A stretch of DNA of 64,000 nt, taken from NCBI RefSeq assembly GCF_008831285.2, contig NC_045141.1, positions 19,650,848 through 19,714,847 of the forward strand, written 5' to 3'. Below the pieces are notes generated by a model. It saw nothing but the letters and a program-made list of their open reading frames with translations, was not told where the DNA came from and did not search any database. Numbering within the stretch: the first letter of the stretch is position 1; each line of letters begins with the position of its first letter. Positions 43,393-44,483 of this stretch are shown one piece after another. The translations under genes were made by a program, and so were the position numbers. The DNA is from Nymphaea colorata. Its lineage: Eukaryota > Streptophyta > Magnoliopsida > Nymphaeales > Nymphaeaceae.

Positions 43393-44189
43393 TGCCGCTG
43401 TGTGCCTTCAGTCAGAAGCAACTTTCTTGTGGTACAAATGGATTCAGAACACTTTTTGGTTAAATTCACGCTTTGAGTCACAATTTCTGAAGCAGAAATT
43501 TATTCTTTCAGGTCGTCAGATTTTGATGTGCTGTAAGCTGTTGATTCTCCCACATTTGGATGATGGAATTCAATATTTTTTTCCTTTTTTTTCATTAATA
43601 ATTCATGTTATCAGTTCCATCAAATTGACCCTCTGATCACTTGATTGGATATCTTTGCATGGACGCTTGTTCACATAGAACATAGTCAATCCAGCCTTGG
43701 AGATGTTCATCTTTCTTTTAGGCTGATTTTTTTTTTTTCGCTTAGTAACAACCATAAATTGTATCCCATTCTTGGAGAACAGAATGTCAGACCTTGTTCT
43801 CTTAAGAAATACTAGAATACGAATGACCTGAGGTCTCATGACTCTCATCATAGCAATAGTCAGATAAGAGATGAAAAGTGCTGGATCATGTAAACTGGGC
43901 TGCATGTTATAATGTGATGCCAAAAAGAGAGGGTTGTTTTTATTCTCCTGATGTTCTAATTTTGTGCATCAAATTGGTTTAGGATTATAACATTCAGGAT
44001 GAACTGAATAAAATGGTGTATATCATTTGTCCTATAAATCATTCGGTCAACTTTTTGATACTGTAAAAATTTGTAGTCACATCAACATTTTCTCATAAAT
44101 TTTCCAAAGTTGACAGTTAACAGCTTTTCCCTGCTACAGATGATTAATCTGCTTAAACTACAACATCGTCACCTTGCTACCCCAATAGG
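40404..44189 (+). pseudogene. U-box receptor-like kinase (PUB family) fragment: coiled coil and kinase start
   Basis: Plant U-box kinases carry an N-terminal USP domain, a coiled coil, a Ser/Thr kinase and a C-terminal U-box (E3 ligase). Readable here: 40404-40521 (HDFVERTMEEGFERLHKQQ), 41094-41209 (ELRDQLWQAKEERYQEMLK), 41730-42151 (KLAEDLLTEEKKQRKAVEA, then the glycine loop IGNGGLGIVYKG and VAIKVL) and 44140-44189 ([16 protein letters not shown]). Splice phases between the first three do not agree. The kinase ends abruptly at the GC-rich segment, before the catalytic loop, so it cannot be active. A U-box exon at 54424 may be its displaced end. The intron at 42152-44139 contains TA and GA microsatellites (about 43336-43391) and nothing else recognised. 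Confidence 0.8.
40851..41080. repeat. 70-bp tandem repeat, 3.3 copies
   Basis: The unit TAACCCTTATTTGCATTTAA...GAGCTCAAAT starts at 40851, 40921 and 40991, with a partial fourth at 41061. Copies are nearly identical, which implies recent expansion. There are no spacers, so it is not a CRISPR-like array. It lies in an intron of the kinase fragment. Confidence 0.95.
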
Positions 44190-44483
44190 CCTGAGACGCC
44201 GTCGCGCAACTGGCCCCAAGCAGACGAGGTACATCAGATCTACCAGTCCTTGTACGAGCCGCCGAGCAGTCCGGGGAGTGAAGAGTCCCCTCTCCCTCTC
44301 GCCGAGCTGTTACCGGCCGTGGTAGACAGGTACCCACTGCACCTGAGTCCAGCCGACGAGTGGGTCGACCCCACGGAGCGGCGGGAGGCAGGCGCGGAAC
44401 GCCATGGAGTCCAAGCCAACCGGCCAACCTGGCAGGCCCAAGTCCGAGGAGCTCTCGACCGCCCGGCGCTAGCAGGGGGACCG
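44187..44483 (+). other. GC-rich segment at a rearrangement junction (copy 2)
   Basis: Matches 37994-38304 almost base for base, with a handful of differences including one short length difference. On the left it joins the kinase exon at ...CCAATAGG; on the right it joins the glycosyltransferase at ACCGGCATTGG. The joins share AGG and ACCG with the ends of copy 1. The two host genes are unrelated and in opposite orientation, so this is a filler at a break rather than a simple insertion into one gene. Confidence 0.8.

Follow-up and report, generated by a model that had tools for sequence, protein, structure and literature searches.

In the 64-kb stretch of Nymphaea colorata DNA analysed here (the window), a diverged copy of a kinase locus on the plus strand and a diverged copy of a glycosyltransferase (UGT) locus on the minus strand converge on a short GC-rich block, and a near-identical sequence lies within a longer GC-rich segment about 6 kb away (Table 1).

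Table 1. Positions, within the window, of the two gene copies, the GC-rich sequences and the associated repeats
Feature	Positions	Strand	Remarks
AT-rich repeat units	37263..37683	+	interrupted at start of GC-rich source; related units at 49440-49687 and 50397-50635 (inverted pair)
GC-rich source segment	37681..38346	+	66.7% GC; CpG observed/expected 0.89; outside the filler part, once in genome
174-codon frame in source	37754..38278	+	diverged relative of a repeated long-ORF family; VYSRGPRR just after, in other frame
Filler template	37993..38304	+	internal portion of GC-rich segment; by sequence comparison
Bases missing from filler	38282..38296	+	15 bases between AGCAG words; by alignment
Kinase-locus copy, diverged	38515..44189	+	paralog C4:19559686-19552720; cut inside kinase-domain exon
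Templated filler	44186..44483	+	copy of 37993-38281, 15 bp skipped, onward to 38304; genome places: 2
UGT-locus copy, diverged	44485..48062	-	paralog C4:19018930-19022236; cut inside PSPG box; start codon 46063; UDPGT domain
TRIM-like insertion in UGT	45366..45817	.	two ~205-bp direct repeats, 79.8% alike; AGTCT/AGTTT flanks; many genome copies

On the kinase side, window positions 38515-44192 matched C4:19559686-19552720 in inverted orientation, with an identity of 86.8-94.7% depending on the block. The counterpart of the cut exon in this paralog is stop-free through the kinase domain and lies in a 317-codon open frame that scored as PK_Tyr_Ser-Thr in Pfam (E 8e-27), and it is this domain that identifies the window copy as a kinase: Pfam detected no kinase domain in the window frame 41615-42172, and an approximate kinase query had no match in the window, even with E values up to 1 allowed. 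The label "U-box" that the kinase had been given presumably reflects a resemblance to such proteins. The interval of about 160 bp that separates the GC-rich source from the kinase copy (38347-38515) contains a word, GGTTCGAGTCC, that we take to be T-arm-like, and has a 26-bp tandem repeat where it borders on the kinase copy.

On the other side, the UGT paralog (C4:19022236-19018930) has a frame that is open from start codon to stop and contains a UDPGT domain (E 2.8e-27). The window copy is interrupted by a 452-bp insertion bordered on both sides by a 5-bp near-repeat (AGTCT/AGTTT), and 49 of the 52 genome matches listed fall on this stretch; we call the insertion TRIM-like. With this insertion, whose two direct repeats are 79.8% alike, the window UGT was most likely dead before the GC-rich block arrived. 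The idea that the event itself disrupted a functional UGT is not supported, the gene having already carried a TRIM-like insertion.

The GC-rich source segment had been described as keeping a 174-codon frame of unknown family. The frame indeed had no match in Pfam, NCBIfam or PDB; relatives of it do, however, exist in the genome. A search of the genome with the source ORF at E up to 1 returned 27 matches. Three of these lie in the window; the other 24 are weak (E 0.0018 to 0.5), are mostly situated inside long open frames and all cover PRPRRTGNARVYRRFYATRP. Compared with five loci of this long-ORF family, the source scored 47.4 bits, whereas 201 controls, shuffled or reversed, stayed at or below 28.1; its tail, TRVYSRGPRRLFLRPKN, scored 28.9 bits, a value to be compared with a maximum of 21.2 among those shuffles, 193 out of 200, that produced a match at all; and the motifs PRRTGxARVYRxFY and VYSRGPRR are both present in the source, in the order in which the family has them. 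These similarities make the source a diverged and GC-rich relative of a repeated family of long ORFs, some of which have an FHA domain. Two of the six family frames scanned with Pfam (L006 and L009) contained the FHA domain, which was found neither in L013 (a partial frame), the second frame of L006, L028 and L032 nor in the source ORF. A search with the L009 frame gave at least 130 matches (65 of 310 candidates scored), with many open frames of about 870-900 codons, and many of the family matches (L006, L009, L028-L032 and the G000 matches) are located on C3:28.4-30.9 Mb and on small contigs. Direct repeats of 97-98% identity that surround the long frame of L029 look LTR-like, and L028 and L030 each repeat themselves at a distance of 7.2-7.4 kb. 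The term "FHA domain" did not occur among the matches listed for literature on LTR retrotransposons and additional ORFs.

The left end of the source breaks an AT-rich repeat unit that is not seen to resume, and the source may therefore itself lie at older repair joins. As to other origins, a bacterial, plasmid or viral derivation of the GC-rich block was rejected, given that no relative was confirmed in viral contigs, plasmids or genome contigs by scans that reach close relatives only (three pattern stretches in viral contigs and 220 in genome contigs, none of them confirmed). A structural RNA was likewise rejected: at the gathering score, the sole Rfam match was a tRNA at 33410-33481. Elsewhere in the window, weaker GC-rich spots occur near 801, 55101-55201 and 61701-61851; 27117-30304 and 50991-54179 form a 3.2-kb inverted duplication that is 95.2% identical, with a matching 152-codon frame in each copy; and 49415-50710 resembles an element with inverted terminal units (49440-49687 and 50397-50635, 88.7% alike) that recur at 37263-37683 and 10763-11037.

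The block between the two gene copies (44186/44187-44483) has a GC content of 67.7%, compared with 38.0% for the 64-kb window. Its positions 44186-44475 aligned with 37993-38281 at 287 of 290 identities (E 3e-147), the differences being two substitutions and one 1-base length difference. The 15 bases that follow in the source, between two AGCAG words, are absent from the block, the gap lying 8 bp before the UGT-side join; from the second AGCAG on, the last 13 bases of the block (44471-44483, ending in ACCG) match 38292-38304 exactly. The original prediction of a GC-rich segment of about 297 bp, nearly identical to part of the source some 6 kb off, was thus borne out. In total, filler and template differ by two substitutions in 297 aligned bases plus two length differences; an alternative alignment prints three differences (JC 0.0102), of which the third, a transition, is an effect of base placement, and we therefore used two. 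Both substitutions read as C-to-T type changes on the filler side; the sequence context is CpG for one and CHG for the other, which would be expected of methylated DNA. It was most likely the source that acquired the 1-base length difference, once the copy had been made, since the two family motifs stand in two different frames in the source and the filler keeps the frame of the second motif. A search of the genome (407,766,735 bases in 783 contigs) with the 666-base source located it in two places, both in the window; as with all repeat counts from this search, the number is a lower bound. At two places, the block does not behave like a repeated element.

Comparison with the paralogs fixed both break points: the kinase paralog and the UGT paralog diverge from the window at the two ends of the filler, to within about 1 base. 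The block accordingly begins where the kinase exon stops and ends where the UGT stops within its PSPG box, just as had been noted from the window sequence. Its ends are internal positions of the GC-rich source and not, as had also been supposed, the termini of the source. The left join shows an overlap of 4 bp, TAGG, between kinase and source: the window has CCCCAATAGG-CCTGAG where the kinase paralog has CCCCAATAGG-ACTATG and the source has CAGCTAGG-CCTGAG; the chance of an overlap of at least 4 bp at one join is 0.016 under a uniform-base model. At the right join, the window leaves the source sequence GGGGACCG at its terminal ACCG and continues through one extra G into CATTGGC, while the open UGT reads ACACCATTGGC and the source ACCGACTAGG, with no demonstrable overlap. 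Of the microhomologies originally proposed, AGG and ACCG, the first can therefore be retained and extended to TAGG, whereas ACCG represents only the last copied bases. Because of the 6-9% divergence of the paralogs, individual bases next to the joins may not be those of the lost ancestor.

Next to these joins, the 3' parts of both genes are missing. The 1516-base 3' part of the kinase paralog matched its own place in the genome, 40 bp at 90% on C11 and 125 bp at 70% on C4, and the whole-genome search found no second copy of it at a matching divergence. The corresponding 373 bases of the open UGT matched three places, namely their own locus, C4:19063418-19063630 (213 bp, 97%) and a 68% relative on C3, and again nothing genome-wide had the divergence that a second copy, derived from the UGT of the window, should have. 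Since no comparable second copy of either was found, the window's own kinase and UGT 3' parts have most likely been lost. An inversion or translocation in place of a deletion would have left these 3' ends elsewhere and was rejected, as reciprocal 3' parts of matching divergence were not found in the genome.

Together, these observations make it probable, in our judgement, that a deletion between two convergent genes was filled with a copy made in cis from the GC-rich segment. Because the kinase and the UGT are convergent, one simple deletion takes both 3' ends. One or two double-strand breaks would have occurred between the plus-strand kinase copy and the downstream, already dead UGT copy on the minus strand, with the removal of the 3' ends of both genes and everything between them. 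The kinase end would then have paired, through TAGG, with the GC-rich segment that lies some 6 kb upstream on this chromosome, either in the sister or in the same molecule, and would have been extended by about 290 bases on this template; after one slip between the AGCAG words, at which 15 bases were skipped, 8 more bases would have been copied before release, and the released end would have been joined to the UGT end with the addition of one extra base. Such a course, presumably a single event with synthesis starting from the kinase end, would amount to filler DNA formed by synthesis-dependent or polymerase-theta-type end joining. The kinase and the UGT would, on this view, once have been neighbours; the two paralog loci gave no match to each other at E 1e-10, and neither locus thus shows a kinase and UGT pair side by side. 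Points against this history are that only one of the two joins has microhomology and that a copy of 297 bp taken from 6 kb away exceeds the 1-131 bp quoted for maize fillers (PMC2686159).

An identical sequence would also result from two steps, in which 37993-44189 (about 6.2 kb) was first duplicated in tandem at TAGG and a deletion then joined position 38304 of the second copy to the UGT. The kinase/GC-rich join looks exactly like a tandem-duplication junction with 4-bp microhomology. This history is nevertheless unlikely, as it requires two independent events, and the 15-bp skip only 8 bp from the second join suggests a single tract of synthesis; moreover, no second kinase copy was found when the window was compared with itself at E 1e-20, although the later deletion would have taken such a copy away. 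GC-rich direct repeats stand on both sides of the kinase copy, an arrangement that could also have arisen if a kinase segment had been inserted, as a patch at a staggered break, into a GC-rich locus with a flanking duplication of about 300 bp, the UGT having already been joined to GC-rich DNA. We regard this as very improbable. The left GC-rich copy runs past 38304 into 38305-38346, which codes for the second family motif, so the left copy was not joined to the UGT at 38304; in addition, kinase copies and GC-rich repeats should then be equally diverged, barring gene conversion, whereas the kinase copies are 6-9% (JC) apart and the GC-rich repeats differ at 2 of 297 bases.

Placement of the block by transposition or gene capture (Pack-MULE, Helitron or LTR element) deserves even less credence and seems to us barely conceivable, notwithstanding the relationship of the source to a repeated long-ORF family. 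The additional copies with identical ends and target duplications that this explanation predicts were looked for in the genome and not found. The two places known both lie in the window, the block has ends internal to its source, and its 25-bp flanks contain no target duplication, their longest common word being CCAA (4 bp), near the left join and well away from the right one; the lone inverted pair nearby (43900-43913/43984-43997) does not flank the filler. With this outcome for copy number, termini and target duplications, and with both breaks fixed by paralogs, the original prediction of templated filler or template switching in preference to transposition is supported. An assembly or misjoin artefact, finally, is highly improbable: the 64-kb window contains no N, and two substitutions plus two length differences are unlike a collapsed or copied piece of contig.

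For the preferred history, a deletion repaired with a cis-templated copy, a relative age can be estimated. In JC distance, window and paralogs are 0.063 and 0.090 apart in two kinase blocks, 0.072 apart in the UGT coding sequence and 0.18 apart in the UGT 5' flank. Set against the kinase values, 2 differences in 297 bases would give the filler roughly a tenth of the age of the kinase duplication, a coarse ratio that depends on two substitutions only; gene conversion between filler and source could make the event seem younger than it is.

The short UGT match at C4:19063418-19063630 (L043:1501-1713) consists of 213 bp of the UGT 3' exon at 96.7% identity, with no other UGT sequence within 1.5 kb on either side; beyond a shared TTCAT, it continues with 26 bp that exactly match a site lying 2.6 kb further along the UGT locus. 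Situated 41 kb from its donor, it looks like a patch of the same kind, made with a template switch, and counts in favour of the preferred history. This two-template patch and the filler lie within 0.7 Mb of each other, and both involve the same pair of UGT copies. A broader reading would make the source a relic of a repeated family of long ORFs that is as yet undescribed (FHA in some members, the GC-rich member present once), and the region one that is recurrently patched by long cis-templated repair; it is offered tentatively, as a possibility that we rate as doubtful.

The locus is of value as a cleanly resolved natural case in which long, local templated repair fused what remained of two gene copies, and the template, both break points and the relative age are all legible in one genome. 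It shows that a filler of about 300 bp becomes recognisable when near-identical fragments close to each other are considered together with paralogs of the flanks; the understanding of repair itself is unchanged by it. Gene-bearing filler has reportedly been studied in wheat by Wicker et al.

In the literature as far as it is cited here, fillers at plant deletions and breaks are copied mainly from nearby, in cis (PMC7156093, PMC2686159, PMC10923293, PMC3014980, PMC3445842), and the Nymphaea colorata event is a repair scar of this known, ordinary kind. The maize wx, bz1, R-r and p2/p1 fillers are similar in that a two-point deletion is bridged by nearby DNA copied in cis, with chimeric genes as a possible outcome, and p2/p1 shares with our filler a single unaccounted base (PMC2686159). 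The Nymphaea filler, at 297 bp and from about 6 kb away, is a long example compared with the maize fillers, for which lengths of 1-131 bp are quoted (PMC2686159). Polymerase-theta-mediated end joining in Arabidopsis (TEBICHI), as described in PMC10923293, likewise combines deletion with templated insertion, short microhomology and template switching; its inserts at induced breaks often come from the immediate flank or from T-DNA, and at the Nymphaea filler this enzyme is the presumed one. In wheat, a gene-bearing filler formed by synthesis-dependent strand annealing is comparable in that a fragment was copied into a break and was not itself transposed, but the wheat case is one of gene movement coupled to TE insertion (PMC3445842), whereas the Nymphaea copy is short and local, with no TE insertion at its joins.
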